A stretch of DNA of 64,000 nt from Marivita hallyeonensis (lineage in GTDB: Bacteria > Pseudomonadota > Alphaproteobacteria > Rhodobacterales > Rhodobacteraceae). The notes beneath the pieces were generated by a model. The model was not told the DNA's origin, did no database searches, and saw only the letters and a program-made list of their open reading frames with translations. Both the position numbers and the translations under genes were made by a program. Within the stretch, counting starts at the first letter, position 1. Every line of letters begins with the position of its first letter. Location of the stretch: positions 496,001 to 560,000 of the forward strand of contig NZ_FQXC01000002.1 of NCBI RefSeq assembly GCF_900129875.1. The letters run 5' to 3'. Positions 27,502-46,960 of the stretch are shown here, one piece after another.

Positions 27502-28233
27502 ATGGCAGAGCGCAAGTCCGCGCTGGTGATCTCGGCGCATGCGGCGGATTTCGTCTGGCGCTGCGGCGGGGCGATCGCACTGCATCAGGCGCGCGGTTAT
27601 GACGTCACCGTTGTCTGCCTGTCCTACGGCGAACGCGGGGAAAGCGCGCGTCTTTGGAAAGACGGGAAAACGCTCGGCGAGGTGAAATCCATCCGTCGAA
27701 AAGAGGCGGAAGCTGCGGCCAAGGCGTTGAATGTGCACGACATTCAATTCTTCGATCTGGGCGATTATCCCCTCGTCGTTGACCAGGACAGCAAGATGCG
27801 CCTCGTCGATGTGTTGCGCAGTGTGCAGCCGCGCTTCATGCTTTGCCACTCAAAATATGACCCCTACAACACCGACCACATGTACGCGACCGAGGTGGCG
27901 CTTGAGGTCCGAATGATCGCGCAGGCTTGGGGGCACAATCCGGGTGAACAGGTGCTTGGCGCGCCGCAGCTCTACCTTTTCGAGCCGCACCAGACAGAAC
28001 AGATGGGCTGGAAGCCCGATACGCTGCTCGACATCACGGAGGTGTGGGATCAGAAGCGCGCCGCCATCGAGTGTATGGAAGGCCAACAGCACCTTTGGGA
28101 TTACTACACCAACGTGGCGGAAAACCGGGGCAACCAGTTCCGACGCAACTCCGGTGGGCAGGCAGGCGGCCGCCCGGCGCGCTTTGCCGAAGCGTTTCAA
28201 TCGGTTTTCCCCCGTACGGTGGACGAACTTTGA
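27502..28233 (+). CDS. galB: 4-oxalomesaconate hydratase GalB (PIG-L family)
   Basis: The 243-aa protein is a PIG-L-superfamily metalloenzyme resembling Pseudomonas putida GalB, which hydrates 4-oxalomesaconate to 4-carboxy-4-hydroxy-2-oxoadipate. Matching segments are [77 protein letters not shown] and [14 protein letters not shown]. The AHAADFVW metal site, in place of the usual HPDD, is characteristic of GalB. Its stop overlaps the start of the aldolase gene (ATGA at 28233), and the tautomerase gene follows. A GGGGAGGATGAC ribosome binding site precedes the ATG. Confidence 0.9.
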
Positions 28234-28904
28234 TGAACGTGGTCGTGCAACACATCGACCGGGCCGCGCCTGAGGTCATCGACCGGCTTGCGCGCTGTGG
28301 CGTCGCGACGGTGCACGAAGCACAGGGGCGCACCGGGCTTCTCGCCTCTTATATGCGGCCGATCTATCGCGGCGCTTCGGTTGCCGGGTCGGCCGTCACC
28401 ATTCTCGCGCCGCCCGCCGACAACTGGATGCTGCATGCGGCCATCGAACAGGTGCGGCCCGGCGACTTGCTTGTTCTCGCGACGACCTCCCCGTCGGACG
28501 CGGGCTATTTCGGGGATCTGCTTGCAACCTCTGCACAAGCGCGGGGATGTCGTGGGCTGATTATCGATGCCGGCGTGCGCGACGTGGCGACGCTTGAGGA
28601 AATGGGTTTTCCGGTCTGGGCCAAGGCGATCTCGGCCCAAGGGACCGTCAAGGAAACGCTTGGGTCTGTGAATGTCCCCGTCGTCTGCGCGCGCGCGGCA
28701 ATCGTACCGGGAGATGTGATCGTCGCGGATGACGATGGCGTTTGCGTGGTTAAGCGCATGGACGCAGCATCCGTTTTGGAGAAGGCCGAAGCTCGATTGG
28801 CGAATGAAGAGGCGAAACGCACGCGCCTCGCGTCAGGTGAGCTGGGGCTCGACATGTATGACATGAGGGACCGTCTAGCCGAGAAAGGCTTGCGATATGA
28901 GTGA
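28233..28904 (+). CDS. galC: 4-carboxy-4-hydroxy-2-oxoadipate aldolase (GalC/LigK, RraA fold)
   Basis: The 223-aa protein is a class II (divalent metal) pyruvate aldolase of the RraA fold that splits 4-carboxy-4-hydroxy-2-oxoadipate into pyruvate and oxaloacetate, and in homologues also decarboxylates oxaloacetate. Family segments are [69 protein letters not shown] and [17 protein letters not shown]; the IDAGVRD stretch holds the substrate Arg and metal Asp. The length of about 223 aa and the C-terminal extension favour the aldolase over the shorter RraA proteins. It overlaps galB by one base. Confidence 0.9.
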
Positions 28905-28921
28905 TCTGCGTTGCTTTTCTC

Positions 28922-29995
28922 ATGCGAAACTTGAACGGATGGGCGCAAGTGTCTGACGGCGTGCGCGTCATGTGGATGCGCGGGGGGACGTCTAAGGGCG
29001 GGTACTTTCTGGCCGAGGATTTGCCAGCAGATCGGGATGCCTTTTTTCTCCGCGCGATGGGATCTCCGGACCCGCGCCAGATCGACGGGATGGGCGGTGC
29101 CGATCCGCTCACATCCAAAGTCGCGGTCGTTTCACGATCCTCGCGTCCCGGTGTAGATGTGGATTACCTGTTTCTGCAGGTTGGCGTGGACACGCCTACT
29201 GTGTCCGACGCACAGAATTGCGGGAACATCCTGGCCGGGGTCGCGCCTTTCGCGATTGAGCGCGGGCTGGTCGATGTGCAAGGCGACCAAACGCGGGTGT
29301 CCATCTACATGGAGAACACCGGACAAACCGCAATGGCGACCGTGGAAACACCCAACGGTGCCCCGACTTACGAAGGCAACGCGTCCATCGACGGCGTTCC
29401 GGGAACCGCGGCTCCAGTTGCGTTGGAGTTCGTCGGAAGTGCGGGGTCGACCTGCGGAGCTCTGCTGCCAACCGGGAACACCCGAGATGAAGTCGCGGGC
29501 GTGGAGGTCACACTCATCGACAACGGAATGCCGGTCGTCATTCTGAAAGCAACGGATATGGGCATCGACGGCGCCGAACCGCGCGAGAATTTGGACGGCG
29601 ACGCACAGTTGAAAGCACAACTCGAAGCGATCCGACTGGCCTGCGGCCCGCTGATGAACCTCGGCAACGTGCGCGACAAGACCGTCCCGAAAATGACGGT
29701 AGTCAGCCGCGCACGCCAGGACGGCACGATCTGCACGCGCACCTTCATCCCGCATCGCTGCCACGCCTCTATCGGCGTTCTGGGTGCTGTCAGTGTGGCA
29801 ACAGCCTGCCTTCTGCCCGGCTCTGTCTCGGCCGAACTGGCAGCTGTCACGGGTGGTCCTGAACAGACGCTTCGGATCGAGCATCCGCTTGGCCAGACAC
29901 GCGTCCTGACAAAGCTGTCAGACAGCGGCGACATCGTGTCGGCAGCGGTCCTGCGGACGGCACGCAAGCTGATGGATGGTGTGATCTTTGGGTGA
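28922..29995 (+). CDS. galD: 4-oxalomesaconate tautomerase GalD (PrpF family)
   Basis: The roughly 357-aa protein is a PrpF-type isomerase that interconverts keto and enol forms of 4-oxalomesaconate. It resembles P. putida GalD in MWMRGGTSKGGYFLAEDLP, GSPDPRQIDGMGGADPLTSK, NCGNILAGVAPFAIERGLV, IDGVPGTAAPVAL, LLPTGNTRDEVAGVEVTLID, NGMPVV and TFIPHRCHASIGVLGAVSV. The start is uncertain: ATG 28922 is given, a GTG at 28901 would overlap galC, and GTG 28949 (VSDGVRVMWMRGG) aligns best with the usual start of PrpF proteins. It follows galB-galC, completing the lower gallate/protocatechuate 4,5-cleavage set. Confidence 0.88.
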   Translation: MRNLNGWAQVSDGVRVMWMRGGTSKGGYFLAEDLPADRDAFFLRAMGSPDPRQIDGMGGADPLTSKVAVVSRSSRPGVDVDYLFLQVGVDTPTVSDAQNCGNILAGVAPFAIERGLVDVQGDQTRVSIYMENTGQTAMATVETPNGAPTYEGNASIDGVPGTAAPVALEFVGSAGSTCGALLPTGNTRDEVAGVEVTLIDNGMPVVILKATDMGIDGAEPRENLDGDAQLKAQLEAIRLACGPLMNLGNVRDKTVPKMTVVSRARQDGTICTRTFIPHRCHASIGVLGAVSVATACLLPGSVSAELAAVTGGPEQTLRIEHPLGQTRVLTKLSDSGDIVSAAVLRTARKLMDGVIFG

Positions 29996-30040
29996 TGCCG
30001 ATCTCATATCCTTGGGCCGGGATCGGAAAGGACAGTTGGC

Positions 30041-30919
30041 ATGAAATTAGCATTCATCGGGTTCGGCGAAGCCGGGTCTGCCTTCGTGCGTGGATGGGGC
30101 GATGCGCATAAGGGCGCAATCAGCGCCTATGACATCAAGTCTGCCGACCCGCGCACCGCGCCCGAGATTGCCGAGCGCGCGGCGGTATTGAATGTCGAGA
30201 ACTGCGCTGACGCGGCCACGGCGGTGGCCAGCGCGGACCTCGTGTTCTGCACCGTGACAGCGGACCAGGCCGGGGTCGCCGCCCGAACGGCGGCACCGCA
30301 TCTTGGTTCCGGCACCGTCTGGCTTGACCTCAACTCTTGCGCACCCGAAACCAAACGGGGATCGGCCGCAGTGATCGAAGCCGCTGGCGGTCGCTATGTC
30401 GACGTCGCGGTGATGTCGCCGGTCTATCCGAAATTGAATCGGGTTCCCTGCCTGATCTCCGGACCACAGGCTGCCGCGCTGTCGGACACGCTGACTGAAT
30501 TGCCGATGAATGTCCGCGTGGTAAGCGATCTGGTGGGTCACGCCTCTTCGATCAAGATGATCCGCTCTGTCATGGTGAAGGGTCTCGAAGCGCTCATCTC
30601 CGAATGTGTGCTCGCCGCGCATGCGGCCGGGGTGGAAGACGAGGTGCTGACCTCCCTCGGCAAGAGCTATCCCGCGATGGATTGGCCGAAGCGGGCGACG
30701 TATAATTTTGAGCGCATGCTGGTGCATGGCACACGCCGCGCGGCAGAGATGGAGGAAGTGTCGAAGACGCTGCGCGATTTGGGGCTGTTTGCTGACGTCA
30801 CGGAGGGCACGATTGCGTGGCAGCGAAGGATGGCCGGATTGGATGTCGCGCCCCCGGACGAAGAGGCTGACCTGCGAACTGTTGCAACCAATCTTCTTGC
30901 GGCGCTTCGGAAAGACTAG
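30041..30919 (+). CDS. NAD(P)-dependent oxidoreductase with DUF1932 C-terminal domain
   Basis: The 292-aa protein looks like a beta-hydroxyacid/6-phosphogluconate-type dehydrogenase. It has a Rossmann start MKLAFIGFGEAGSAFVRGW, the VFCTVTADQ segment, VWLDLNSCAPETKRGSA and YVDVAVMSPVYP. The middle segment SSIKMIRSVMVKGLEALISE, with its Lys, fits the DUF1932 helical domain. It is 45 bases after galD on the same strand and probably part of the operon. It may reduce or oxidise a hydroxy/oxo acid related to the GalBCD substrates. The substrate is unknown. Confidence 0.8.
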   Translation: MKLAFIGFGEAGSAFVRGWGDAHKGAISAYDIKSADPRTAPEIAERAAVLNVENCADAATAVASADLVFCTVTADQAGVAARTAAPHLGSGTVWLDLNSCAPETKRGSAAVIEAAGGRYVDVAVMSPVYPKLNRVPCLISGPQAAALSDTLTELPMNVRVVSDLVGHASSIKMIRSVMVKGLEALISECVLAAHAAGVEDEVLTSLGKSYPAMDWPKRATYNFERMLVHGTRRAAEMEEVSKTLRDLGLFADVTEGTIAWQRRMAGLDVAPPDEEADLRTVATNLLAALRKD

Positions 30920-31659
30920 AGCGACGTGAGACCGCTCCAGATCAGTCGCAGCGAAATTAGGATGAGAAGGACGTTCAGCGCCAAACCGAACCGCGCATCT
31001 GTCAGACGGTTCAGCACCAGCCGTCCGCTGAATGTCCCGATCAGACCCACCACGATGAGAGCGACACTGACCATGGCCCATTCACCGAAAGCAAAACCCA
31101 GAAGGCCGAACACGACAACCTTCAACCCGTGCTGCACTGTCATCAACGTGGCATGCGTGGCGACATGAGCATGGCGGGCGAGCTTGAGCGATTTGGTGAA
31201 ACTTGCCACGAAAAGCCCGGTCGCCCCGAAGAACATCGTCAGGAAACTGGAAATGAAGCCAGTCACGACGGGCCATCGGCTGAACCACCGCGGCGCACGG
31301 GCGAGGACGGTGTAGATGACGAAGACGCCGATGCCAATCTGCACCCATTGCGGCGGCAGCGCGATCACGACGCGCCCGCCAAACACAACACCCACGAGCG
31401 TGCCAAGCGTGAACCATGGCAGCGCGCCCCAGAAGATCGAGCGCCACAGCATCGCCATGCGTCCGGCGTTCGACCCCAACTGGACAACACCATGCACCGG
31501 GATCAGGGCAGCAGGCGGCATGACGGTCGCCATGATCGCCAGCAAAAGACCGCCTCCGCCGATCCCGAACGCGGCGGTGATGAACGACCCCAGAAAGCTG
31601 CCGATCAGGATTGTCCAGAAGGCGAATTCGGACAGGCCTTCGGGCAGAAACTCAATCAT
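30916..31659 (-). CDS. TauE/SafE-family membrane transporter (putative anion/sulfite exporter)
   Basis: The 247-aa protein has about 8 hydrophobic segments and the TauE/SafE (DUF81) glycine-rich signatures FITAAFGIGGGGLLLAIMA and FGATGLFVASF in its two repeats. Members export sulfite, sulfoacetate or other organic anions from the inner membrane. The start is set at ATG 31659, with GGGGG upstream. Its 3' end overlaps that of the DUF1932 gene by 4 bases (convergent), and it is divergent from an RraA-like gene. Export of sulfite from DHPS breakdown is one possible role, and export of an acid linked to the neighbouring pathway is another. Confidence 0.85.
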   Translation of the reverse strand: MIEFLPEGLSEFAFWTILIGSFLGSFITAAFGIGGGGLLLAIMATVMPPAALIPVHGVVQLGSNAGRMAMLWRSIFWGALPWFTLGTLVGVVFGGRVVIALPPQWVQIGIGVFVIYTVLARAPRWFSRWPVVTGFISSFLTMFFGATGLFVASFTKSLKLARHAHVATHATLMTVQHGLKVVVFGLLGFAFGEWAMVSVALIVVGLIGTFSGRLVLNRLTDARFGLALNVLLILISLRLIWSGLTSL

Positions 31660-31700
31660 GCGACCCCCGGTCGGTCGCACAACCCTCGGAGAGACTTATC

Positions 31701-32189
31701 ATGAAACCGACATGCGACCATTTCGATGACCACGGCGATGCGCTTGGCGTCTTGCCCGCTGGCTTGCGCCATTACGGTGGAACACCTGCGTTTCACGGCC
31801 CTGCGGTCACGGTGAAGACATTCGAGGTGAACAGCCGCGTGAAGGAACTGGCCAATACGCCAGGCGAGGGTCGTGTCATCGTGGTGGACGGTGGCGGGTC
31901 CTTGCGGCGCGCGCTCTGCGGCGATGTCATCGCGGCAGAAGCTGCAGAGCATGGGTGGGCCGGTATCATCATCTGGGGTGCCGTGCGCGACGTCGAGATG
32001 CTGTCGAAAACACCGATCGGCATCATGGCCATGGGTCACACCCCGGCGCGCTGTGTCCGAAAGGGCGAAGGTGAGGTGGACTGCGCGATCCGGATCGACG
32101 GGGTCGCTATCGCTCCCGGTGATTACGTCGTCGCCGACGCGGACGGGGCCCTCGTTTTTCCAAAGGACGGACCGCAACCAAGCTTCTGA
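31701..32189 (+). CDS. RraA-fold protein (RraA-like regulator or aldolase)
   Basis: The 162-aa protein has the RraA fold: MKPTCDHFDDHGDALGVLPA, FHGPAVTVKTFEVNSRVKEL, VVDGGGSLRRALCGDVIAAE, GWAGIIIWGAVRDVEMLSKT and PGDYVVADADGALVFPK. The short length matches RraA, the RNase E inhibitor, but the G-x-x-RD metal/substrate signature also occurs in small hydroxy-acid aldolases. It is the second RraA-fold gene in 3.5 kb. The catabolic context makes an aldolase/decarboxylase role plausible, so I leave the function open. A GGAGAG ribosome binding site precedes ATG 31701. Confidence 0.8.
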   Translation: MKPTCDHFDDHGDALGVLPAGLRHYGGTPAFHGPAVTVKTFEVNSRVKELANTPGEGRVIVVDGGGSLRRALCGDVIAAEAAEHGWAGIIIWGAVRDVEMLSKTPIGIMAMGHTPARCVRKGEGEVDCAIRIDGVAIAPGDYVVADADGALVFPKDGPQPSF

Positions 32190-32194
32190 CCCCG

Positions 32195-33181
32195 TCACGC
32201 TTTCGCGCCCTTCTCCCAAACCTCCGGATTGATCATGTGGATCGGAGTGCCCGCCGCGTAAGCAACGATCTGGTCGTAGATGTCGCCGAATTGCATGTCC
32301 AATTCGTCTTCCGTGACATACCCGATATGCGGTGTGACGATGACATTCGGCGCGGTCAAAAGCGGATCATCCGGGTTGGTGTGCGGCTCTTCATCGAACA
32401 CGTCCAGCGCCATTCGTCCCGGACGGCCCTGGGCCAGTACCTTGTCCAGCGCGCCCGGCTCCACCAGGCGGGACCGCGACGTGTTCACGAAGGTGGCGCT
32501 TGGCTTCATTGCAAGCAGATCCTCGGCGCGGATCAAGCCACGCGTCTCGGGGGTAAGGCGTACATGGACCGAGACGAAATCGCTATCGGCAAAGAACGCC
32601 TGCCGACTGTTCGCCACGGTTTGCCCGTCGGCGCGCGCACGGGCGCGCCCGTCTTCCGATCCCCACCAGACCACCTCCATCCCGAAGGCGCGGGCGAAGT
32701 TCCCTACCTGTTTGCCAATACGCCCGTACCCGTAAAGACCGATCCGGCGACCCGCCAGCGTCTGTCCCGGCGCGAGCTGCCAGTGTCCGGCCTGCATGGA
32801 CGCCATCTGTTGCGGGATTTGTCGGGCGGAGGCGAGGATCAGGGCAAACGTCAGCTCTGCCGCAGCCGGAGACGGCGCACCGCCTTTCATCTTGGAACAC
32901 AACAGAACATCGTTTTGCGTGCACGCTTGGACGTCGACATGCGGATAGACGCTGCGCTGACTGATAAGCCTCAGCTTCGGTAACCGATCCAGCAAGGGTT
33001 TGTGGATCGCGGTCCTTTCACGGAACAACACAAGCGCATCCGCTTCCGCAAGACGCGAGGCCAAAACGTCCAAGTCCTCGGTATGATCCGTCCAAATTTT
33101 TACGTCGTGTCCGTCGAGCTTTGAAAAGCTGGGCAGCGTCTTCAGCGTGTCGAACCAGTCATCAAGGATATGAACCTTCAT
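32195..33181 (-). CDS. D-isomer-specific 2-hydroxyacid dehydrogenase family protein
   Basis: The 328-aa protein has the D-2-hydroxyacid dehydrogenase layout. The NAD-binding motif is LAGRRIGLYGYGRIGKQVGN (around residues 145-164). The catalytic Arg is in FVNTSRSRLVEPGAL, the Glu in ALDVFDEEP and the His in VIVTPHIGYVTEDELD. It should interconvert a 2-hydroxy acid and a 2-oxo acid in the cytosol. It overlaps the small upstream gene by 4 bases (ATGA), so both are translated from one message starting near the GTATAC palindrome. The substrate is probably a di- or tricarboxylic hydroxy acid given the neighbours, which is inference. Confidence 0.9.
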   Translation of the reverse strand: MKVHILDDWFDTLKTLPSFSKLDGHDVKIWTDHTEDLDVLASRLAEADALVLFRERTAIHKPLLDRLPKLRLISQRSVYPHVDVQACTQNDVLLCSKMKGGAPSPAAAELTFALILASARQIPQQMASMQAGHWQLAPGQTLAGRRIGLYGYGRIGKQVGNFARAFGMEVVWWGSEDGRARARADGQTVANSRQAFFADSDFVSVHVRLTPETRGLIRAEDLLAMKPSATFVNTSRSRLVEPGALDKVLAQGRPGRMALDVFDEEPHTNPDDPLLTAPNVIVTPHIGYVTEDELDMQFGDIYDQIVAYAAGTPIHMINPEVWEKGAKA

Positions 33182-33417
33182 CGGCTTTCGACGCCCGCCT
33201 GTGGTGAGGGTGTCCGGGGTGTTGGTACGAAGACTTCGGCGTCGAGCGCGTCCAGCGCATCACTGACCCGCCGCCGGAGGGCGAGAAGGTGGTTGAATTG
33301 CGCGTCACAGCCCGAAATCGGCGTTGGATAGGCGCGTATCTCTTCGATCAGGATCTGGCGTGCAGAGCGCAGCGAAGCACGTGCCTCGGCAATGGCGGTC
33401 TCGATTGATGTTGACAT
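33178..33417 (-). CDS. Hypothetical helical protein, 79 aa
   Basis: I do not recognise this 79-aa protein. It starts MSTSIETAIAEARASLRSAR, is largely helical (RQILIEEIRA, HLLALRRRVSDALDALDAEV) and ends in a short Pro/Thr tail. There is no signal or membrane segment. A strong GGGAGGAC ribosome binding site precedes ATG 33417, and the stop overlaps the dehydrogenase start by 4 bases, which argues that it is real. It may be a small partner of the dehydrogenase; nothing more can be said. Confidence 0.7.
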   Translation of the reverse strand: MSTSIETAIAEARASLRSARQILIEEIRAYPTPISGCDAQFNHLLALRRRVSDALDALDAEVFVPTPRTPSPQAGVESR

Positions 33418-33480: not shown

Positions 33481-35145
33481 TCATTTCGGCGGGTGCGCGC
33501 GACGGATGACCGGAGAGGCGACCTTGTCCGATATCGGCACATCCCAGACGGCAGCCCCTCCCGCAGCAGCAAACGCGGAAACCAGATCGGGGATTGCATC
33601 GAGGTCGGTCACTGTTTCGCCGCCGATGCCAAATCCGCGCGCGATGGATGCGAGATCGGTCCGGCCGAAGACCGCGCCTTCGTCGGACAGTCCTTCGGCC
33701 CGCAATTTGTGGATCTCGGACCCGTAGGCACCATCATTCAGCACCACGATCAGGATGTTCATCTTGTGCCGCGCGATTGTCTCAAGTTCTTGAACATGCA
33801 TGAGAAGACTGCCGTCGCCATCAAACATCACCACGGTGTCGTCGGGCCGGGCCGCGGCAACCCCCATCGCAAAGCTGATCCCGTTTCCGATGGCACCGAA
33901 TTCGCGGATGGTCAGGAAATGCGTCTGCGGGCGCGACGGCATTTGTGCGACGTAATACGAACAGTGTCCCGATGAATTGACCATTTGCCAATGCTTTGGA
34001 AGGTGCTCTTCAAGCGCGGCGACAACATCACGCGGGTCGTGCAACCCGGCTTCTTTCGGAAACTCTGTGCTATCGGCGGGTGCATTGGCGATGCGGTGCG
34101 CAAGGTCTTCCGTCCGCCATGTTGCAGCCCGCGTGGGCAAATGATCCAGAAGCGCCTCGACCCCTAAACGCGCATCCGCACGTAAATGCGTGTTGGCAGC
34201 GATGCGCCCTTGGCTGATCGTCGCCGGGTCGGTGTCGATGTGCAAAAGCTGGGCGTTGGGCCACAGCTTTCCCCCGTCGGCGTTGTGATGCGACAAGGAC
34301 GTCCCCACGCCAATCACAAGGTCTGCTTCCGCAAAGCAAGTGCGGGCTGTCTCTGTCGAAAAACCGCCCGCGACGTTGAGGTTGAACGGATGGTCATGAA
34401 ACAGCCCCCGCGCCGGGAGCGTCGTGGCCAAAAGGCCATCGCACCGATCCGCCAGCGCACGACAGGCGTCCCCTGCCCCAGCCTCTACCGCGCCGAGGCC
34501 TGCCATCACCACGATCCTCTGCGACGCCTCGATCAAGGAGACCGCAGCGGACACGCTCTCGGGATGAGGCGGCATGGGCAATGGGTTAGGCGCCAGCGCT
34601 TTCGACGTCACCGGATCGGGCGGTGCGCCTGCCCATGGGCGGTTCTGCAGATCGAACGGTACACCGACGACGACCGGACGTCTCTCGCGCCGAGCTTGCA
34701 GGAATGCGTCACGGATGGCTGCGGGCATACGTTCGGGATGATGCAAGACGTGGTAATCCGCGCCAGTGGCCAGCACGAACGGGGCCTGGTCGATGGCCTG
34801 ATTGTACCACGCCGATTTCAACGGCGCTTCGCCGGTGAAAATGACGAGCGGAATGCGCGCCCGCACCGCTGCGGGAAGCGCAGTCATCACTTGCGTGAGA
34901 CCCGGACCACAGGTCGTCGTTGCCACGCCGACCTCGCCCGACTTGCGTGCATACGCCATCGCGGCGGCGACGGCGCAATGTTCGTGGCGGACGTAGATCA
35001 TTTCGCACCCACCTTCGGCGAGGCGGGTGGCGAAGTTCATGTTCGCATCGCCCAAGAGCGCAAAACAGGTGCTCACCCCTTCGGCAACGAAGGTCTGCGC
35101 CAGAATGTCAAAGAGTTTGAGGTCCATGACCATATCGTCCTTCAT
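33481..35145 (-). CDS. Thiamine diphosphate-dependent enzyme (acetolactate synthase/decarboxylase family)
   Basis: The 554-aa protein has all three domains of the ThDP family. The N-terminal PYR domain has the activating Glu in MIYVRHEHCAVAAAMAYARK and TTTCGPGLTQVMTALPAAVR. A central Rossmann-like domain (VVMAGLGAVEAGAG) follows. The C-terminal PP domain has the cofactor motif from VVMFDGDGSLLMHVQELET to VVLNDGAYGSEI. The best guess is decarboxylation of a 2-oxo acid or an acyloin-forming reaction; true acetolactate synthase is unlikely because no small subunit is nearby. It starts at ATG 35145 (GGGAGAC site), 10 bases after the PrpF-like gene, in the Tct operon. Confidence 0.88.
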   Translation of the reverse strand: MKDDMVMDLKLFDILAQTFVAEGVSTCFALLGDANMNFATRLAEGGCEMIYVRHEHCAVAAAMAYARKSGEVGVATTTCGPGLTQVMTALPAAVRARIPLVIFTGEAPLKSAWYNQAIDQAPFVLATGADYHVLHHPERMPAAIRDAFLQARRERRPVVVGVPFDLQNRPWAGAPPDPVTSKALAPNPLPMPPHPESVSAAVSLIEASQRIVVMAGLGAVEAGAGDACRALADRCDGLLATTLPARGLFHDHPFNLNVAGGFSTETARTCFAEADLVIGVGTSLSHHNADGGKLWPNAQLLHIDTDPATISQGRIAANTHLRADARLGVEALLDHLPTRAATWRTEDLAHRIANAPADSTEFPKEAGLHDPRDVVAALEEHLPKHWQMVNSSGHCSYYVAQMPSRPQTHFLTIREFGAIGNGISFAMGVAAARPDDTVVMFDGDGSLLMHVQELETIARHKMNILIVVLNDGAYGSEIHKLRAEGLSDEGAVFGRTDLASIARGFGIGGETVTDLDAIPDLVSAFAAAGGAAVWDVPISDKVASPVIRRAHPPK

Positions 35146-39299: not shown

Positions 39300-39331
39300 C
39301 ACGGGTCCTGTCGATAAAGGGAAAGCCTAAA

Positions 39332-39367: not shown

Positions 39368-40480
39368 TCACTCCAGAGTGACGCCGTAGCTTTCTTCGAG
39401 CCAGTTCACGACAAAGGCGCGCGCTTCTTCCGGCACCTGTGTTCCCAACTGGAATGCAGCCTTGGCACCATCGCGGGTCATCTGCGGATAGACACCAAGC
39501 GTTTTCTCGGCCAGCGTGTCGAAGTCATCCCGCGCGATGATATCATCAAAGGCCTGCGAGAAGGTTTCCACAACATCCGCCGAGGCGCTTCCGGGAAGGA
39601 ACACCATCTTCTGCGCCGGGAAGCCCGCGATGAAGAACGCCTTCCACGCGTCCCAGGCATCGCCTTCTGTGGCACAGGCCGGTGTCGCTTCGCACACTTC
39701 CTTGAAGGACGGAATGTCCGGGAAGGTCGGGTCGCGCACGATGTTGCCCGCGTTGTCTAGCGCGCCCCATGTCATCATCGGGACGGCCAGACCTTCATCG
39801 ACCATCGGCTGAACCGAACGCAGATAGGCCGAGGATGTCTGGTAGTCGATATTCGCCTCACCGCGTTCGAACATGAGACGGCCGTCGCCGCGCCCCTCGA
39901 TACCGAAGACCGGCTCGACATTCATACCCAGCATTTCCCACGCGAGGTTGGCAACGAGGTCAAGCCGTGTCGCCCCCTGGCTGCCCCAGATGTAGTCGGT
40001 ACCTTGCAGGCCCGTTGCATCCAGACCATCCATCTTCGCCGCTTCGTCAGGCGGGAGGTAAGCCACACCGCCGGTGCCCGAGGCAAGCACCACCTGCCAG
40101 TCATTGTATTCGTAGCGCACACGCGGATCGCCCAGAAGATACGGGAACTGCGTCGATCCCGAAGTGCCGAAAATCAGCGTGCCGTCATCGGTTGTCTGTT
40201 CCTGGAACCAATTCGCGCCGGTGGTGGATCCGGCACCGGGACGATAGCGTACGACAACCGTCGGGTTGCCCGGCAACGCTTCGGACAAAAGCGGCGCGTA
40301 GAAATTGGCCCAGCGCGCCGACCCGCCCGATTCCGAGAACGGGATCACGAATTCGATGGTTTGGCCTTCGTAGTTGACGCCGCCGTGGCTGCCGGCCGTT
40401 GCGGTTGTCGCCAAGGCCAGGGTCGCTGCGCCCACGAGGGCGGCTTGCGCCGTGTGGCGCAGAGTTGTCTTGTCAGTCAT
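39368..40480 (-). CDS. Tripartite tricarboxylate transporter substrate-binding protein (TctC/Bug)
   Basis: The 370-aa protein has a signal peptide (LRHTAQAALVGAATLALATT, ending near TATAGS) and the TctC/Bug fold. Features are INYEGQTIEF-like start (seen as VNYEGQTIEFVIPFSESGGS), VVVRYRPGAGSTTGANWF and MMTWGALDNAG. It is longer than typical Bug proteins (about 320 aa) and contains two cysteines in SFKEVCEATPACATEG. It should bind a carboxylate in the periplasm and deliver it to the TctAB fusion. It is the first gene of the minus-strand operon and is divergent from tctD, with a GGAGGAC ribosome binding site. Confidence 0.85.
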   Translation of the reverse strand: MTDKTTLRHTAQAALVGAATLALATTATAGSHGGVNYEGQTIEFVIPFSESGGSARWANFYAPLLSEALPGNPTVVVRYRPGAGSTTGANWFQEQTTDDGTLIFGTSGSTQFPYLLGDPRVRYEYNDWQVVLASGTGGVAYLPPDEAAKMDGLDATGLQGTDYIWGSQGATRLDLVANLAWEMLGMNVEPVFGIEGRGDGRLMFERGEANIDYQTSSAYLRSVQPMVDEGLAVPMMTWGALDNAGNIVRDPTFPDIPSFKEVCEATPACATEGDAWDAWKAFFIAGFPAQKMVFLPGSASADVVETFSQAFDDIIARDDFDTLAEKTLGVYPQMTRDGAKAAFQLGTQVPEEARAFVVNWLEESYGVTLE

Positions 40481-40621: not shown

Positions 40622-41296
40622 ATGCGCATCGTTTTGGTGGAGGACAACGCCAGTCTTGCCAAAGGCATCGCCTACCGGTTGCAGGACGCGGGCCATGCGG
40701 TGGATATGCTCGACGACGGGTTGCAGGCGTCAGATTTTCTGCGCGACGAACCGGCGGATCTGGTGATCCTCGACATCAACCTGCCGGGAATGGACGGGCT
40801 GGACGTGCTTCGCGGGATGCGTGACCGGGGCGATACACGGCCGGTTTTGCTGCTGACAGCACGGTCCGACACGGTGGACCGGGTGCGCGGACTGGATGCC
40901 GGGGCGGACGACTATCTGGTCAAGCCGTTCGAGATGGCAGAGCTTGAGGCCCGCGTGCGCGCCCTGTCGCGTCGCAGCCCGCAACCCTTTCGGAAGGAAC
41001 TGACCTTTGGCCGCCTGACGCTTGACCTCGATGCGCGTCAGGTGCTGGTCGATGGCGCGCCGCTGTCCCTGCCCCGACGCGAGGTCAGTCTGCTTGAAGC
41101 GCTCATCACGGCCGAGGGGCGCACGGTCCCTAAGGCGCAATTGCTGGAGCACACTTACGGCACCGGAAGCGATATCGAAGAAGCTGCGATCGAAGCGCAC
41201 CTGTCGCGCCTGCGCAAACGTCTGAAGCCCTACGGTGTCCGCATCAATGTCCAGCGCGGATTGGGCTACGCCATCGCCCCGGAGGCCGCGTCGTGA
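40622..41296 (+). CDS. tctD: TctD-like OmpR-family response regulator
   Basis: The 224-aa protein has a receiver domain (acidic pair in RIVLVEDNASLAKGIAYRL, phosphoacceptor Asp in LVILDINLPGMDGLDVLRGM, Thr/Lys in LLLTARSD and DYLVKPFEMAELEARV). A winged-helix DNA-binding domain follows, ending in SRLRKRLKPYGVRINVQRG and LGYAIA. It pairs with the kinase gene that overlaps its end by 4 bases. Divergence from tctC suggests it activates the Tct operon when the tricarboxylate is present, as TctD does in Salmonella. Confidence 0.9.
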   Translation: MRIVLVEDNASLAKGIAYRLQDAGHAVDMLDDGLQASDFLRDEPADLVILDINLPGMDGLDVLRGMRDRGDTRPVLLLTARSDTVDRVRGLDAGADDYLVKPFEMAELEARVRALSRRSPQPFRKELTFGRLTLDLDARQVLVDGAPLSLPRREVSLLEALITAEGRTVPKAQLLEHTYGTGSDIEEAAIEAHLSRLRKRLKPYGVRINVQRGLGYAIAPEAAS

Positions 41297-42669
41297 CGCT
41301 GTCGCTCCGCCTTCGGCTGACGCTGATCATTCTTCTGCCGCTTCTCGCCATCGGTACCGCGGTGGGGTTCTGGCAGGTCAGCAACGCCCGGGCGACCGCC
41401 GCGGATCTGTTCGACCGCAGCCTTTTGTCCGCAGCGCTCGCCATCTCGGCGGATGTGGAGCGCACGAATGGCAACGCGATCTCGCTGGAGACATCTGACA
41501 TTCTGGCCGACACCTCCGGAGGCCCGGTGTTCTACCACGTCTACGCCCCTGACGGCATCTACGTGCTGGGCTACGCGACACCACCGGTTCCAAGCTCTGG
41601 CACCTATGCGCCCGAGGCGGAGGTGATCTATTACGACGGTCGGTACCACAGCCGCGAAGTCCGCGTGCTTCGGTATCGGTCCGAGACGACTATCGACGGC
41701 GTGAGCGGCCTTTTCACCTATACCGTCTGGCAGGACGTTGCAGTGCGCAATGCGTTCGTCAGCGATCTTGTTCTGCGCACCTTTACGGTGATCGCGGTCC
41801 TGATCGGATCGGTCGCGCTTGTCGTGTGGTTCGGGGTCAGCCTCGGATTGCGCCCGCTTCTGGCATTGGAGGATGCCATATCGCGGCGCAGCTCGGACGA
41901 CCTGCGTCCGATCAAGCGCGCTGTCCCGCCGGAAACGGTGGGCCTTGTCACACGGCTGAATTCGCTGTTCCGGCAGGTCGAACAGGCGATGGAGACTCAA
42001 TCCACGCTGATCTCGAACGCCGCACACCAACTGCGCAACCCCATCGCAGGAGTGCTTGCCATGGCCGAGGCGGTTCACAGCGCGCCCACCGACGCGGCGG
42101 CGCGCGAGCGATCAACCGAAGTGCTCGAGGCCGCCCGGCGTGCCAGTGCTTTGGCCAACAAGCTTCTCACCCTCGAACGCGTACAGGCGGCACCGCCACA
42201 GGCCCTGCAATCGGAGGTCGACGTGACCGAGCTTGTCACGGAAACGGTGAAGGCCTTTCAAAGTCTGGTGGAAACGCGCGGCGTCGAACTGGTGTCCCGC
42301 GTACCAGACAGCGCTGCCACGGTCGTCGCGGACCGGGTGATGCTGGGAGAAGCGTTGGCCAACCTGATCGACAATGCCGTACAACACGGGGGACCCGAGC
42401 TGACCCGTATCGCGGTCTCGTTGGCATCAAAGGGAGATCACCTGGAGATTACCGTACAAGATAACGGCAAGGGTCTTGCCGCATCTGACGTCAGCACAGC
42501 GCTCGCACGGTTCGGGCAAGCCGGGCCAAGCGATGGCAGCGGTCTTGGCTTGTCGATCGCACATGCAGTGGCGCTTCGGCACGACGGCTCTCTGGACCTG
42601 CAGACAGACGGTCAGGGGTTGACCGTCGTGCTGCGTCTGCCGCTTGCCCACGCCGCCACCAAGACCTGA
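41293..42669 (+). CDS. tctE: TctE-like sensor histidine kinase
   Basis: The 458-aa membrane kinase starts with a GTG that overlaps the tctD stop (GTGA). It has a first membrane helix (LTLIILLPLLAIGTAVGFW), a periplasmic sensor of about 130 residues, and a second helix (FTVIAVLIGSVALVVWFGVS). The phosphoacceptor His is in STLISNAAHQLRNPIAGVLA, and ATPase motifs are NLIDNAVQHGG, VQDNGKGL and GSGLGLSIAHAVA. The layout and operon match TctE, which senses tricarboxylates in the periplasm. A short extra sensor motif GVSGLFTYTVWQD precedes the second helix. Confidence 0.88.
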   Translation: MTLSLRLRLTLIILLPLLAIGTAVGFWQVSNARATAADLFDRSLLSAALAISADVERTNGNAISLETSDILADTSGGPVFYHVYAPDGIYVLGYATPPVPSSGTYAPEAEVIYYDGRYHSREVRVLRYRSETTIDGVSGLFTYTVWQDVAVRNAFVSDLVLRTFTVIAVLIGSVALVVWFGVSLGLRPLLALEDAISRRSSDDLRPIKRAVPPETVGLVTRLNSLFRQVEQAMETQSTLISNAAHQLRNPIAGVLAMAEAVHSAPTDAAARERSTEVLEAARRASALANKLLTLERVQAAPPQALQSEVDVTELVTETVKAFQSLVETRGVELVSRVPDSAATVVADRVMLGEALANLIDNAVQHGGPELTRIAVSLASKGDHLEITVQDNGKGLAASDVSTALARFGQAGPSDGSGLGLSIAHAVALRHDGSLDLQTDGQGLTVVLRLPLAHAATKT

Positions 42670-42680
42670 ACACCGCATGG

Positions 42681-43754
42681 CTACGTGTCACCACGGTCCT
42701 TCGCGGCGCGCTCGTTGACTCCAAGTAGCCTTGCTGCAATCGGCGCCCCGGCGATGACGACGACGATCCGGGTCAAATGGTGCACAATGACAAACCCAAG
42801 GTCGGCCCCGGCCACAATCGCCAAAACCGTCATCTCGGCCTGCCCGCCCGGTGCAAAGGCAAGAAAGCTTTCGACCGGGGGCGCCAGACCCAGAACATAG
42901 GCGATCTCGGTAAATCCGGCTGCCAGCGCCGCCAGAAGAAGGACAAAAATCACACCCGCTGCAACGTCGCGGCGCAGCTCGAGCAACGTGACGCCGACAT
43001 AGCCGACACCAATGCCCATACCGATGAAGAACTGTGCGACAAGAATGGCCTCGGACGGCGGGCGCACGTGGATCAGACCTGACAGGGACAGAATAGCCGT
43101 GACAATCATCGGACCGAGGATCGACGCCCCGAAGAGGCCGATCTTCTCTCCGCCTTTCCAACCGACAAGGGCGGCAAGAACCATCAAGGCCAGTTCGCCC
43201 ATGGGCAAGGTAACCACCGGTGCGCCAATGGGGTTGTCCAGCGACACGCCGAAACCGGCGGTCAGGATGATCGGAGCCACGGTCACGATGATCAACACCC
43301 GCGTGGCGTGGATCAGTGACAAGGCACGCACGTCGCCGCCCGCTTCCTGGCCGAAGATCACCATGTCCTGCAAACCGCCAGGCATCGCGGCGTACCAGCT
43401 TGTTGCCCAGTCGAATTTGTACACCCGGCGGAAGAACGGCACGCCGATCAATCCGATGATGACAATGTAGAACGGGATCAATGCCACCGAGTAGGCCAGC
43501 TGCGGCAACCGAGCCAGCAAGTCCGGTGTGATAGACGCGCCAACGGCGACACCGAGGATCGTCCGCGCCGCGACGGAGATTTGCCCCATGCCACGCAGGC
43601 GCGCCCCGGCAAGGGCCGCGATCAGACACGCCAGCATCGGGCCGAACAGAAACGGCAGTGGCAATCCGGTTGCCCAGAAAGCTCCGGTTCCTGCAATCGC
43701 AAGACACACAGTCAGGATGCGGTCCCGCGCGGATGAAGACAATGAATGCAGCAT
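42681..43754 (-). CDS. AbrB-family membrane transporter
   Basis: The 357-aa protein has about 10 hydrophobic segments in two repeats, as in the AbrB (putative ammonia monooxygenase, DUF4150-type misnomer) family. Repeat motifs are GLPLPFLFGPMLACLIAALA, SYAAMPGG-like WYAAMPGGLQDMVIFGQEAG, and in the second half FLAFAPGGQAEMTVLAIVAG and FVIVHHLTRIVVVIAGAPI. The function of these proteins is not established; they are often near GntR regulators and carboxylate transport genes. I start at ATG 43754, with AGGA upstream. It is convergent with tctE and divergent from the GntR gene, sharing its promoter interval. Confidence 0.82.
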   Translation of the reverse strand: MLHSLSSSARDRILTVCLAIAGTGAFWATGLPLPFLFGPMLACLIAALAGARLRGMGQISVAARTILGVAVGASITPDLLARLPQLAYSVALIPFYIVIIGLIGVPFFRRVYKFDWATSWYAAMPGGLQDMVIFGQEAGGDVRALSLIHATRVLIIVTVAPIILTAGFGVSLDNPIGAPVVTLPMGELALMVLAALVGWKGGEKIGLFGASILGPMIVTAILSLSGLIHVRPPSEAILVAQFFIGMGIGVGYVGVTLLELRRDVAAGVIFVLLLAALAAGFTEIAYVLGLAPPVESFLAFAPGGQAEMTVLAIVAGADLGFVIVHHLTRIVVVIAGAPIAARLLGVNERAAKDRGDT

Positions 43755-43770
43755 CAAGAGGTGATCCTAT

Positions 43771-43800
43771 TGCATCCGGTTGTATCCAAGTGTATCCAAT
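43771..43800. repeat. Three 10-bp tandem repeats, probable GntR binding array
   Basis: TGCATCCGGT (43771-43780), TGTATCCAAG (43781-43790) and TGTATCCAAT (43791-43800) follow each other without spacing, each one helical turn. They occupy the 74-base interval between the AbrB gene and the GntR gene. On the other strand each unit reads TTGGATACA-like, resembling half sites of FCD-type GntR regulators. Autoregulation and control of AbrB is the simplest reading. Confidence 0.6.
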
Positions 43801-43828
43801 TTGGGAAGCCACAATCACGCCGCCGGAT

Positions 43829-44491
43829 ATGCCTGATCCAAAATCACATGACGCCAGCCAAGGTCAGGACGCGTACGCGCGGCTTCTGTCGGAGATCAGA
43901 TTGGGCAGTCTGCAACCTGGCGACCGCCTCACCGAGACCGATCTCGCGTCGCGTTTCGGCATCAGCAGAACCCCGATCCGCGAAGCAATCCGTCTGTTGG
44001 AGGCCGATGGCCTTGTGACGCACAAACCGCGCGTCGGCGCGACGGTCCGATCGTTGGATTACGCTGAAATTACGGAGCTGTACGAGATGCGCGCAGTTCT
44101 GGAGGGCACGGCTGCCCGTTTCGCGGCACGCGCGGCCTATGACAGCGAAACCGATGAATTGGCCGCAATCAATGACGCGATGGCGCAATCACCTGAGGAC
44201 GTAGAGCGCCTCTTCACGCTGAACGCCCGGTTCCACACCGTCTTGCTGAACGCCGCGCGAAACAAATTTCTGATCCGCGCCATGAAGTCCATTCAGAAAA
44301 CGCTCCTCATACTCGGGCCCTCGACGCTCGTAGAAGCCGAACGCGTGACCGGAGCGTTGCAGGAACACGCCGCGATTATCGACGCACTGCGCGCGCATAA
44401 CGGCGATCACGCCGAAGCGGCCATGAAGACCCATATCGAAGCGGCCCATCGTGCACGCCTTCGAAAACTGCGTGGAGGCGACGTCGCATGA
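43829..44491 (+). CDS. GntR-family (FadR/FCD-type) transcriptional regulator
   Basis: The 220-aa protein has an N-terminal winged helix (YARLLSEIRLGSLQPGDRLT, then DLASRFGISRTPIREAIRLL and LVTHKPRVGATV). The C-terminal FCD domain has ELYEMRAVLEGTAARFAARA, the metal-binding His in NARFHTVLLNAARN, and HIEAAHRARL. FCD regulators commonly sense carboxylic acids. It overlaps tcuA by 4 bases (ATGA), so it is the first gene of a gntR-tcuA-tcuB operon and likely controls it. The ribosome binding site before ATG 43829 is weak. Confidence 0.92.
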   Translation: MPDPKSHDASQGQDAYARLLSEIRLGSLQPGDRLTETDLASRFGISRTPIREAIRLLEADGLVTHKPRVGATVRSLDYAEITELYEMRAVLEGTAARFAARAAYDSETDELAAINDAMAQSPEDVERLFTLNARFHTVLLNAARNKFLIRAMKSIQKTLLILGPSTLVEAERVTGALQEHAAIIDALRAHNGDHAEAAMKTHIEAAHRARLRKLRGGDVA

Positions 44492-45882
44492 CCCAGCTCG
44501 ACAAGACCCGATGGGACGTGATCGTTGTGGGCGGCGGCAATGCAGGTCTTTGCGCAGCGATTGAAGCCGCGGAAACCGGCGCGCGCGTTCTGATCCTCGA
44601 AAGTGCACCAAAACCCTACCGTGGCGGCAATTCGCGTCACACTCGGAACTTCCGCTGCATGCACCGTGGTCCACTGTCGGTCTTAACCGGCTCTTACGAA
44701 GAAGACGAATATTTTGACGATCTGATCCGGGTCACTAAGGGCAAGACGGACGAACATCTCGCACGAATGACGATCCGCACCTCGGAAGAGTGTCTGCCCT
44801 GGATGGAAGCCCATGGCGTTGCATTTCAGAAATCCCTGTCCGGCACGTTGTCCCTGAGCCGGACAAACGCCTTTTTCCTTGGGGGCGGCAAGGCTCTGGT
44901 CAACGCGTATTACAACACCGCGCAGGACCTTGGCGTGACCGTCGCCTACGAGGCCGAAGTGAAACATGTCGTCGTCGAGGAAGGTCGGTTTCAAGGTCTC
45001 GACGTCCTGATCGGCGGGTCGGAAACTCGTATCGAGGGCCGCGCGCTGGTGCTGGCCTCTGGCGGGTTTCAGGCAGACCTTGACTGGTTGGCCGACGCTT
45101 GGGGTCCCGCCGCCCGCAACTTTCTCATCCGGGGCACCCCTTACAATCGCGGCGTAGTTCTACGCGACATGCTCGACCAAGGCGCGGACAGTGTCGGTGA
45201 CCCGACCCAGTGCCACGCCGTCGCCATCGACGGACGCGCCGCAAAGTTCGACGGCGGCATCGTAACCCGCCTCGACTGTGTCCCGTTCTCGGTCGTGGTG
45301 AACAAGGACGGCGAGAGATTCTATGACGAAGGCGAGGACGTCTGGCCGAAACGCTACGCCATTTGGGGTCGCCTCGTCGCGGCACAGCCCGATCAAGTGG
45401 CATATTCGATCATCGACAGCAAGAGCATCAACAACTTCATGCCATCCGTTTTTCCACCCGAGACCGCCGACACGCTGGACGGGCTGGCACAGAAACTGGG
45501 TCTCCCGGGCACGAAGCTGCGCGAGACGGTCACTGCATTCAATGAGGCCTGCCAGAACGGCACCTTCATGCCGACCGAACTGGACGGTCTGTCGACCAAC
45601 GGTCTCACACCCGAAAAGACGAACTGGGCCCGTCCCATCGATACACCGCCCTACTATGGCTACTCCCTGCGTCCCGGTGTGACCTTCACCTATCTTGGCC
45701 TCAAGGTGGACGATACCGCGCGCGTGTCAGGCCCGACCGGACGCTTCGCCAATATCTGGGCGGCGGGCGAGATCATGGCCGGTTCGATCTTGGGTGAAGG
45801 CTACCTTGCCGGGTTCGGCATGACCATCGGAACCGTCTTTGGACGCATCGCCGGACAGGAGGCCGCGAAACATGTCGCTTGA
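44488..45882 (+). CDS. tcuA: FAD-dependent tricarballylate dehydrogenase TcuA
   Basis: The 464-aa flavoprotein belongs to the fumarate reductase/succinate dehydrogenase group. The FAD motif is DVIVVGGGNAGLCAAIEAAE, then GGNSRHTRNFRCMHRG, an Arg-containing active-site segment FMPSVFPPE, and the C-terminal ANIWAAGEIMAGSILGEGY. The overall pattern matches TcuA of Salmonella, which oxidises tricarballylate to cis-aconitate. The overlapping iron-sulfur/haem partner gene tcuB supports this. It could equally act on another tricarboxylate present in this island. Confidence 0.9.
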   Translation: MTQLDKTRWDVIVVGGGNAGLCAAIEAAETGARVLILESAPKPYRGGNSRHTRNFRCMHRGPLSVLTGSYEEDEYFDDLIRVTKGKTDEHLARMTIRTSEECLPWMEAHGVAFQKSLSGTLSLSRTNAFFLGGGKALVNAYYNTAQDLGVTVAYEAEVKHVVVEEGRFQGLDVLIGGSETRIEGRALVLASGGFQADLDWLADAWGPAARNFLIRGTPYNRGVVLRDMLDQGADSVGDPTQCHAVAIDGRAAKFDGGIVTRLDCVPFSVVVNKDGERFYDEGEDVWPKRYAIWGRLVAAQPDQVAYSIIDSKSINNFMPSVFPPETADTLDGLAQKLGLPGTKLRETVTAFNEACQNGTFMPTELDGLSTNGLTPEKTNWARPIDTPPYYGYSLRPGVTFTYLGLKVDDTARVSGPTGRFANIWAAGEIMAGSILGEGYLAGFGMTIGTVFGRIAGQEAAKHVA

Positions 45883-46960
45883 TACCACACCCGCACTCAC
45901 GCCGGTGGACGAGGCACGCCGCCAGGTCGAAATCTGCAACGCCTGCCGTTATTGCGAAGGCTACTGCGCGGTCTTTCCATCGGCGTTCAGCCAACGCGCC
46001 TTCAGCGACGGCGACATCACGCAACTCGCCAACCTGTGCCACAACTGCCGTGGCTGCTACTACGCCTGCCAATACACGGAACCGCATGAATTCGCCTTGA
46101 ACCTGCCCGCAGCACTGGCAGAGGTGCGCGTCGAAAGCTGGGAACGATACGCGTGGCCGAAGGGGTTCGCGCGTCTGTTTCAGGAAAGCGGCGTCGCGCT
46201 GGCGGGGGCGCTTGTCGTTGGCATTGCCCTGCTCTTTTTCGCGCTGACCGCGTTGACGCCAGAGGCTGGTGAGGGCTTCTATGCGTATCTCTCACACGGC
46301 GCGATGGTCGCCATTTTCACGCCCGCGTTTTTGCTCCCGCTCGTCGCGGTCGGGATCGGTCTGCACCGCTATTGGCGCGACGTGGACGGCAGGCCGATTA
46401 CGTTCGCGCATCTCAAAAGCGCGTTTCAGGATGCCGCCCGTTTGAAGAATTTGTCCGGCGGTGCCGCAAACGGGTGCAATTTCGAAGACGGCGACCGCTA
46501 TTCGCAAGCGCGTCGGCACGCCCATCACGCGGTCATGTACGGGTTTCTGCTTTGCTTCGCGTCCACCTCAAGCGGCACCGTGCTGCATTACGGGTTCGGA
46601 ATGGAGGCCCCCTACAGCCTCTTCAGCCTGCCAAAGCTCTTGGGCGTTCCGGGTGGCATACTTCTGACCATCGGCGCGACGTATCTCGTCTGGCTGAAAA
46701 CCAAGGCCGATCCGGACCTGGGCGCGGCATCAGTCTGGGGCGGCGAAATGGCCTTCGTTCTCCTGCTCGGCGCCACGGGCGCGACCGGCCTCGCGCTTTA
46801 TGCCGCCACCGGAACCAGCTGGGTGGCACCCTTGCTGGCGATCCATCTGGGCACCGTCCTCGCGTTCTTCGTCACAACGCCCTATTCCAAAATGGTCCAC
46901 GGCTTCTACCGCCTCGCCGCCCTCATCCGGGATGCGCAGAGGCCGTCGGGTGCGGTGTGA
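45872..46960 (+). CDS. tcuB: TcuB, iron-sulfur membrane partner of TcuA
   Basis: The 362-aa protein has two four-cysteine clusters near the N-terminus (CNACRYCEGYC and CHNCRGCYYAC), giving two 4Fe-4S sites. About six membrane helices follow, with conserved His residues (RRHAHHAVMYGF) suited to haem or quinone binding. TcuB reoxidises the FAD of TcuA and passes electrons to the respiratory quinone pool. Its start overlaps tcuA by 11 bases. Length and layout match TcuB. No TcuC (tricarballylate permease) follows; the Tct transporter may take its place. Confidence 0.92.
   Translation: MSLDTTPALTPVDEARRQVEICNACRYCEGYCAVFPSAFSQRAFSDGDITQLANLCHNCRGCYYACQYTEPHEFALNLPAALAEVRVESWERYAWPKGFARLFQESGVALAGALVVGIALLFFALTALTPEAGEGFYAYLSHGAMVAIFTPAFLLPLVAVGIGLHRYWRDVDGRPITFAHLKSAFQDAARLKNLSGGAANGCNFEDGDRYSQARRHAHHAVMYGFLLCFASTSSGTVLHYGFGMEAPYSLFSLPKLLGVPGGILLTIGATYLVWLKTKADPDLGAASVWGGEMAFVLLLGATGATGLALYAATGTSWVAPLLAIHLGTVLAFFVTTPYSKMVHGFYRLAALIRDAQRPSGAV

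Follow-up and report, generated by a model that had tools for sequence, protein, structure and literature searches.

Comparison of the Island with Described Systems

GalBCD (GalD/LigU, GalB/LigJ, and GalC/LigK) catalyses the lower steps of protocatechuate/gallate 4,5-cleavage, a degradation route of the lignin type, and tricarballylate utilisation in Salmonella is encoded by the genes tcuRABC. Members of both systems were found together at positions 27502 to 46960 (referred to as the island) of a Marivita hallyeonensis window, i.e., the whole 64,000-nucleotide stretch of contig NZ_FQXC01000002.1 that was analysed. An earlier reading made from the letters alone (the sequence-only reading) had proposed that the island encodes one combined tricarboxylate pathway. 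The gene set proved to be real, non-random, layered, and modular, and it suggests an undescribed way of using three-acid compounds. Its most interesting property is that the form of the island carrying a thiamine diphosphate (ThDP)-dependent enzyme is tied to GalBCD, while recognised ring-cleavage feeders are often absent.

All three enzymes of the 4,5-cleavage lower branch are encoded in the window, where they are instead tied to a tricarboxylate transporter and TcuAB, with neither a LigB-family dioxygenase nor the vicinal oxygen chelate (VOC) dioxygenase of gal operons found in the genome. Similar to Salmonella, tcuA and tcuB are adjacent and accompanied by a regulator gene. However, this regulator is of the GntR and not the LysR (TcuR) type, a tripartite tricarboxylate transporter (TTT), recognised by the PF01970 match of TctA (Table 1), takes the place of the major facilitator superfamily (MFS) protein TcuC, and a second PrpF-type protein (PrpF2), a D-2-hydroxyacid dehydrogenase (2HDH), and the ThDP enzyme are added, the neighbours of tcuAB being the GntR gene and an AbrB-family permease gene. 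For trans-aconitate utilisation by Bacillus velezensis (tarRAB), PMC11495376 describes a PrpF-superfamily isomerase adjoining a transporter and a regulator, as in the window, but the importer is an MFS and not a TTT protein. Likewise, YbhH of E. coli is encoded beside a putative tricarboxylate transporter in ybhD-ybhHI, although of a different type, next to genes for a LysR regulator and a putative hydrolase, according to PMC9068703. YbhH (6otv, taken as the E. coli protein from the entry name) was also the closest solved relative of PrpF2. Among the matches listed in the open PMC literature, no description of this gene set was found.

A Widespread Transporter Core with Two Further Layers

The best explanation for the island, which we rate slightly short of an even chance, is that a Tct-type core for tricarboxylate uptake and oxidation acquired a ThDP enzyme and became connected to GalBCD. 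The first layer is this widespread tricarboxylate uptake/oxidation core, which is conserved across the Rhodobacterales. Using TctC as a query, 113 out of 390 Rhodobacterales genomes were matched at E 1e-90, and the core was present in 90 of the 390 genomes (91 loci). Among 99 fetched loci (TctC at least 53% identical), TctA was present in all, and TctC, TctA, and PrpF2 were contiguous in 97, with the beta-decarboxylating dehydrogenase Iso_dh inserted in some; the exceptions were G255_L251, lacking PrpF2, and Jannaschia L142, where the record stops within TctA. The 97 counted loci comprise 12 genome loci obtained by searching for ThDP (one of them in the window), 79 obtained via TctC, and six named records, the Sagittula sp. 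P11 locus entering twice. TctC matches were fetched down to about E 1e-143, plus G131 and G255_L251. Neighbourhood counts leave out NT-25, L005, G107, G221, G244, and G302, which have no core, as well as G255_L251 (TctC and TctA, no PrpF2) and Jannaschia L142. Since the flanks were unequal (ThDP genome loci, about 20 kb; TctC loci, about 10 kb), the GalB test described below was based on whole genomes.

Within the core loci, genes for 2HDH (87/97), TctE (84/97), TctD (79/97), the AbrB permease (72/97), and GntR (60/97) were frequent. TcuA was encoded in 55 loci by gene calls (57 by tblastn), and a different TcuA-family protein (540 bits, cut-off 369; about 30–35% identical) stood at the place of TcuAB in 27 others, e.g., L191 and L178. 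As the two were never found in the same locus, 82 of the 97 loci possess a TcuA-family gene. The Pseudosulfitobacter plasmid, as annotated, represents a minimal form of the core, and the Palleronia and Sagittula annotations list no TcuAB adjacent to it. Chance assembly of the island was rejected in view of the conserved core. The conservation in other Rhodobacterales that the sequence-only reading had suggested checking was observed for TctC-TctA-PrpF2 and not for the full set: in 82 of 97 loci, the core occurred without ThDP, TauE, Gal, and RraA2 genes.

The second layer, the ThDP enzyme and a TauE-type exporter, falls into roughly a single clade of the transporter tree. A match to the ThDP enzyme was detected in 16 of the 390 genomes, and its gene in 15 of the 97 core loci. 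TauE was present in 13 core loci, at a distance of 7.0–8.8 kb from TctC, all of them with ThDP (13/15 ThDP loci, 0/82 others), and RraA2 (five loci) and GalBCD (six loci) were likewise confined to ThDP loci. DUF1932 was found in 11 loci (10 with ThDP; 12 loci by tblastn) and in 8 out of 20 Gal loci located elsewhere, and Iso_dh in 13 loci (8 with ThDP; 14 by tblastn). On a TctA tree of the 91 genome loci, two changes were needed for ThDP, three for TauE, seven for GalB in the genome, and eight for Iso_dh, from which it follows that ThDP and TauE joined about once and then moved with the island, whereas Iso_dh was gained or lost repeatedly.

Association between the ThDP-Type Island and GalBCD

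GalBCD is the third layer, and the ThDP-type island is coupled to it non-randomly. GalB orthologues were detected in 61 of the 390 genomes; this search did not extend to the named records (a Boseongicola metagenome-assembled genome, Roseivivax, Pacificitalea, and others). All 12 sampled genomes featuring the core and ThDP encoded GalB, compared to 5 of 79 ThDP-minus core loci. Across the order, GalB was present in 15 of 16 ThDP-plus genomes (G107 lacking it) and in 46 of 374 others (Fisher 2e-12); counted by genus, the values were 12/13 and 29/126, respectively (p 1e-6). GalB was linked to the island in 5 out of 12 genome loci and in Roseivivax. In none of the five ThDP-minus core genomes with GalB was it linked, the gene being located on another contig or more than 500 kb away.

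The island genomes were scattered across a 26-row GalB tree (seven changes, at least six of them forced) and showed no clear clustering, as 67 of 500 shuffles were equally low; the Gal genes of the window grouped with two genomes of the same genus having no ThDP match. When GalB, GalC, and GalD were combined in one tree for the same rows, linkage to the island as a label required five changes. Supported branches forced all five, and monophyly of island-linked GalBCD was rejected (p 1.7e-51). Read most simply, this means that Gal operons differing in ancestry came to be located beside the ThDP-type island on more than one occasion.

For feeders of the Gal route, 20 Gal loci beyond the island were inspected, 10 in genomes where ThDP was matched. 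In or by the Gal operon, six loci possess LigB-family genes, eight a catechol-2,3-dioxygenase-like VOC gene (L285, L286, L288, L289, L291, L295, L296, and L301), and six neither nearby. The VOC gene scored 300.9 bits against a cut-off of 320.2 and possibly represents a type I extradiol enzyme replacing LigAB/GalA. In the window genome (99.99% complete), the LigB family (PF02900), found in 4 of 14 control genomes, was not detected, nor was the VOC dioxygenase of gal operons, for which the same query matches elsewhere; other dioxygenase types were not searched. Neither kind of feeder was found in 7 of 12 ThDP-plus genomes (G000, G016, G124, G274, G343, G378, and G388; the window's included), compared to 3 of 46 GalB-plus, ThDP-minus genomes (G013, G044, and G327; p 2.4e-4). 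The remaining 5 of the 12 carry a LigB-family or VOC dioxygenase. Altogether, 10 out of 58 tested GalB-plus genomes lacked both kinds sought.

Several observations weigh against this explanation and the route proposed below. On the transporter tree, ThDP was gained roughly once, and an independent-pairs test was left with one usable pair; thus, the GalB–ThDP counts are not independent trials. The linked grouping was chosen after the GalB tree had been seen, and its five changes may be gains or losses alike, which were not told apart. GalBCD is unlinked to the island in 7 of the 12 core and ThDP genomes, and the missing-feeder contrast becomes weaker by genus (4/9 and 3/33, p 0.028). A LigI-like protein (33% identity, 5.2e-28) is encoded on another contig of the window genome, and a feeder of some other, unrecognised kind may exist. 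In addition, the C7 substrate is deduced from chemistry, and ThDP and TauE cannot be placed firmly in the scheme. Finally, 74 of the 79 ThDP-minus core loci reside in genomes without GalB, so 2HDH, PrpF2, and TcuAB must also have a task not ending in GalBCD, most simply the channelling of C6 acids into the tricarboxylic acid (TCA) cycle.

The idea of one combined pathway survived in part: the core is conserved in the order, GalBCD is tied to its ThDP form, several Gal lineages are linked, and feeders are often missing, but a single fixed pathway was rejected by the presence and absence of modules. Independent assortment, which the sequence-only reading had considered fatal to its proposal, does occur, albeit non-randomly: the core mostly stands alone, GalBCD is also part of LigAB or catechol-2,3-dioxygenase-like operons, Iso_dh requires eight changes, and the regulators neighbouring each module differ (TctDE or LysR, GntR, LysR).

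Proposed Route and Competing Explanations

Known reactions of the LigU/GalD, GalB, GalC, and TcuA families share the chemical space of a C7 2-oxo-tricarboxylate. It is therefore proposed, with confidence falling a little below the midpoint, that C7 tricarboxylates with an origin other than ring cleavage within that cell are channelled by the island into GalBCD, pyruvate and oxaloacetate being the end products. Every step is predicted from protein families. TctC/TctA would import a 2-hydroxy- or 2-oxo-4-carboxyadipate-type C7 acid, 2HDH would oxidise the 2-hydroxy acid to the 2-oxo acid, and TcuAB would desaturate the succinyl part, yielding 4-oxalomesaconate (OMA) or an isomer. PrpF2 and GalD would then shift the double bond, converting OMA to 2-keto-4-carboxy-3-hexenedioate (KCH), from which GalB would form 4-carboxy-4-hydroxy-2-oxoadipate (CHA) to be cleaved by GalC into pyruvate and oxaloacetate; the latter may be decarboxylated by GalC or RraA2. 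The ThDP enzyme probably draws on this pool of 2-oxo-tricarboxylates as well, with a decarboxylase or lyase activity, and Iso_dh, or an oxaloacetate decarboxylase in relatives, could provide an optional beta-decarboxylation step.

PrpF2 reached 310 bits with YbhH and 280 with LigU, compared to 132 with PrpF. It aligns with the Lys and Cys varying between the LigU entries 6p3j, 6p3h, and 6p3k, which we take to be the catalytic residues of LigU; both are retained in PrpF2. For PrpF itself, K73 and C107 are given as catalytic residues in PMC5690661.

Among the alternatives, the one surviving best, yet unlikely, is that the core imports tricarballylate, trans-aconitate, or citrate, with TcuAB producing cis-aconitate, PrpF2 serving as aconitate isomerase, the TCA cycle finishing the degradation, and the Gal genes residing nearby for other reasons. 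TcuA indeed passes the tricarballylate dehydrogenase equivalogs, the core mostly occurs in genomes without GalB, and isomerisation of trans-aconitate by PrpF-superfamily proteins is described in PMC5690661 and PMC11495376. On the other hand, the scores of PrpF2 place it nearer to YbhH and LigU than to PrpF, the role of 2HDH would be left unexplained, and both the GalB association and the linkage of the ThDP form would have to be coincidental.

A weaker alternative, which we consider improbable, is that the island scavenges OMA, KCH, CHA, or 2-pyrone-4,6-dicarboxylate released by other bacteria that degrade lignin, GalBCD finishing their breakdown. The TTT-type import, the seven island genomes possessing GalBCD without a recognised dioxygenase, and the LigI-like protein encoded in the genome are consistent with it, but scavenging has no need for TcuAB or 2HDH, which are both conserved in the core, and no LigI-type gene was among the called island genes.

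The cargo of TauE/SafE-family exporters varies, which counts against deducing a sulfonated substrate from TauE. It is very improbable that the substrate is a sulfonated acid, desulfonated by the ThDP enzyme in the manner of Xsc, with TauE exporting the sulfite: TauE was restricted to ThDP loci, is named as a sulfite exporter in C2-sulfonate metabolism (work cited within PMC5373536), and hpsN-like genes lie directly upstream in the window, but the ThDP enzyme reached only 154.7 against the Xsc cut-off of 676.4, an hpsN-like gene (36%) was near just one other core locus (G056), and nothing was seen to tie GalBCD to sulfonates.

Returning to the feeding of C7 acids into GalBCD, its most far-reaching form is possible but doubtful: in a complete and so far undescribed route, C7 tricarboxylates originating otherwise than by ring cleavage within that cell would be taken up, oxidised, and desaturated to OMA/KCH for completion by GalBCD, and a ThDP enzyme with a novel function would sit where the route branches. 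Rhodobacterales would have built this route more than once by joining Gal operons of their own to a single travelling transporter–ThDP island. Were this the case, the final steps of protocatechuate/gallate 4,5-cleavage would also serve as a funnel for C7 tricarboxylic acids and not just as an aromatic tail, GalB-plus genomes without the two dioxygenase kinds need not degrade aromatics, and a function would be given to the core of 90 Rhodobacterales genomes as well as to a ThDP subfamily without an assigned reaction.

Gene Content of the Island

Families of the window genes were identified by Pfam and NCBIfam scans (Table 1). All families named in the sequence-only reading were present; its list had omitted TauE, AbrB, and GntR and had not recognised the first PrpF as GalD.

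Table 1. Genes of the tricarboxylate island and their family assignments (bit scores with model cut-offs; E-values where so written).
Gene	Assignment	Module	Position	Strand	Evidence
GalB	PIG-L-type 4-oxalomesaconate (KCH) hydratase	Gal	27502..28233	+	PF02585 5e-24; solved 4-oxalomesaconate hydratase 5cgz 2e-91
GalC	CHA aldolase/oxaloacetate decarboxylase, RraA fold	Gal	28233..28904	+	TIGR02798 374.7 bits (cut-off 304.5); NF006731 381.6 (cut-off 179)
GalD (first PrpF)	LigU-type oxalomesaconate delta-isomerase, PrpF fold	Gal	28901..29995	+	NF033377 510.5 (cut-off 440); 6p3j 6e-152, Lys and Cys aligned
DUF1932	NAD(P)-binding dehydrogenase	Frequent Gal-operon neighbour	30041..30919	+	PF09130 1.1e-19
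TauE	TauE/SafE-family exporter	ThDP add-on layer	30916..31680	-	PF01925 3.9e-16
RraA2	Small second RraA-fold protein		31701..32189	+	PF03737 2.9e-42; NF006875 177.4 (cut-off 136)
2HDH	D-2-hydroxyacid dehydrogenase	Core	32195..33181	-	PF02826 1.3e-48
ThDP enzyme	ThDP-dependent, acetolactate-synthase superfamily	Add-on layer	33481..35145	-	PF02775/02776/00205
PrpF2 (second PrpF)	Predicted allylic isomerase closest to YbhH and LigU	Core	35156..36229	-	NF033377 448.3 (cut-off 440); 6otv 2.1e-91; 6p3j 2.5e-82
Iso_dh	Beta-decarboxylating dehydrogenase (isocitrate/isopropylmalate/homoisocitrate/tartrate superfamily)	Variable accessory	36226..37287	-	PF00180 3.6e-88
TctA	Permease with C-terminal extension	Core	37284..39302	-	PF01970 387.6 bits, residues 25-443 of 672
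TctC	TctC-type periplasmic binding protein	Core	39368..40480	-	PF03401 17.5 bits; profile-profile 95%, 2.6e-8
TctD	TctD-like response regulator		40622..41296	+	PF00072/PF00486; best NCBIfam match TctD 214.3 bits, under cut-off 337
TctE	TctE-like sensor kinase (2CSK_N)		41293..42669	+	PF08521, PF00512, PF02518
AbrB	AbrB-family membrane protein (permease)	Core	42681..43757	-	PF05145 3.1e-76
GntR	GntR/FCD regulator	Adjoins tcuAB	43829..44491	+	PF07729, PF00392
TcuA	FAD-dependent tricarballylate-type dehydrogenase	Core	44488..45882	+	NF006130 680.7 (cut-off 369)
TcuB	4Fe-4S membrane electron carrier		45872..46960	+	TIGR02484 359.9 (cut-off 246.6); PRK15033 385.4, under cut-off 524

The score of this divergent TctC lies under the Pfam cut-off of 27; its probable assignment was obtained by aligning a profile of 97 TctC orthologues with a clear TctC. 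The predicted TctC structure (predicted local distance difference test score, pLDDT, 45.2) was set aside. Neither a separate TctB gene nor a Pfam TctB match was found in the island scans, and the C-terminal extension of TctA, comprising about 230 residues, may stand in for TctB.

For the ThDP enzyme, scores were under the cut-offs of all 25 NCBIfam models listed (out of 55 matched), and for Iso_dh under those of all 17 listed; no NCBIfam reaction is therefore assignable to either. Among the 50 matches listed for the predicted ThDP structure (pLDDT 63.7), only generic ThDP folds with 20–25% identity were obtained. A PA4872-like oxaloacetate decarboxylase (6.2e-53) occupies the Iso_dh position in three loci. 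In G107 (L127-L128), which has no GalB, a distant ThDP relative (57%) is encoded beside an aminotransferase, RraA, TctCBA, a homoaconitase-family protein, and TcuAB. This locus is a different tricarboxylate island, again with an enzyme that might supply a 2-oxo acid; its context fits, but does not prove, a 2-oxo-acid decarboxylase or lyase function of the ThDP protein.

The best solved relatives of the DUF1932 protein, 4ezb and 3qsg, carry names in which a reaction is absent. A cobalamin-related (CobZ) role of TcuA, suggested by the name of TIGR02485, was not favoured because no cobalamin gene was among the genes scanned between 27.5 and 47 kb; a CobB/CobQ-type gene is located outside the island (21190-22689). 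A search of genome contigs anchored on the isopropylmalate-dehydrogenase-like Iso_dh returned 80 loci, of which L003 and L004 share the island, L005 shares DUF1932, and L082 shares TcuAB-GntR, the remainder featuring only the query and scattered paralogues. An Rfam scan of positions 22000-49000 yielded no RNA match.

Further Genes in and around the Island

A universal-stress-type protein, whose gene typically separates PrpF2 from 2HDH, is encoded in 29 of the 97 core loci (e.g., L141, 17229-18044); none of the 15 ThDP loci has it. Furthermore, four loci (G016, G019, and G354, i.e., L103, L118, and L184, as well as L003) harbour a gamma-glutamyltranspeptidase-family gene in or beside the island, hinting at an amide-linked precursor.

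Upstream of the island (22727-26985), the window encodes a LacI regulator, a histidinol-dehydrogenase-like protein (hisD by its model name), a short-chain dehydrogenase/reductase, and a zinc alcohol dehydrogenase, a cluster resembling an hpsNOP-type sulfopropanediol operon. As island members, the hpsN-like genes (23902-26985) were rejected, given that just one other core locus, G056, has such a gene nearby. Downstream, positions 48415-56183 comprise a separate uptake and breakdown operon encoding an amidohydrolase, a zinc alcohol dehydrogenase, a haloacid dehalogenase-type (HAD) hydrolase, an ATP-binding cassette (ABC) transporter, a phosphonate-type binding protein, and a DeoR regulator.

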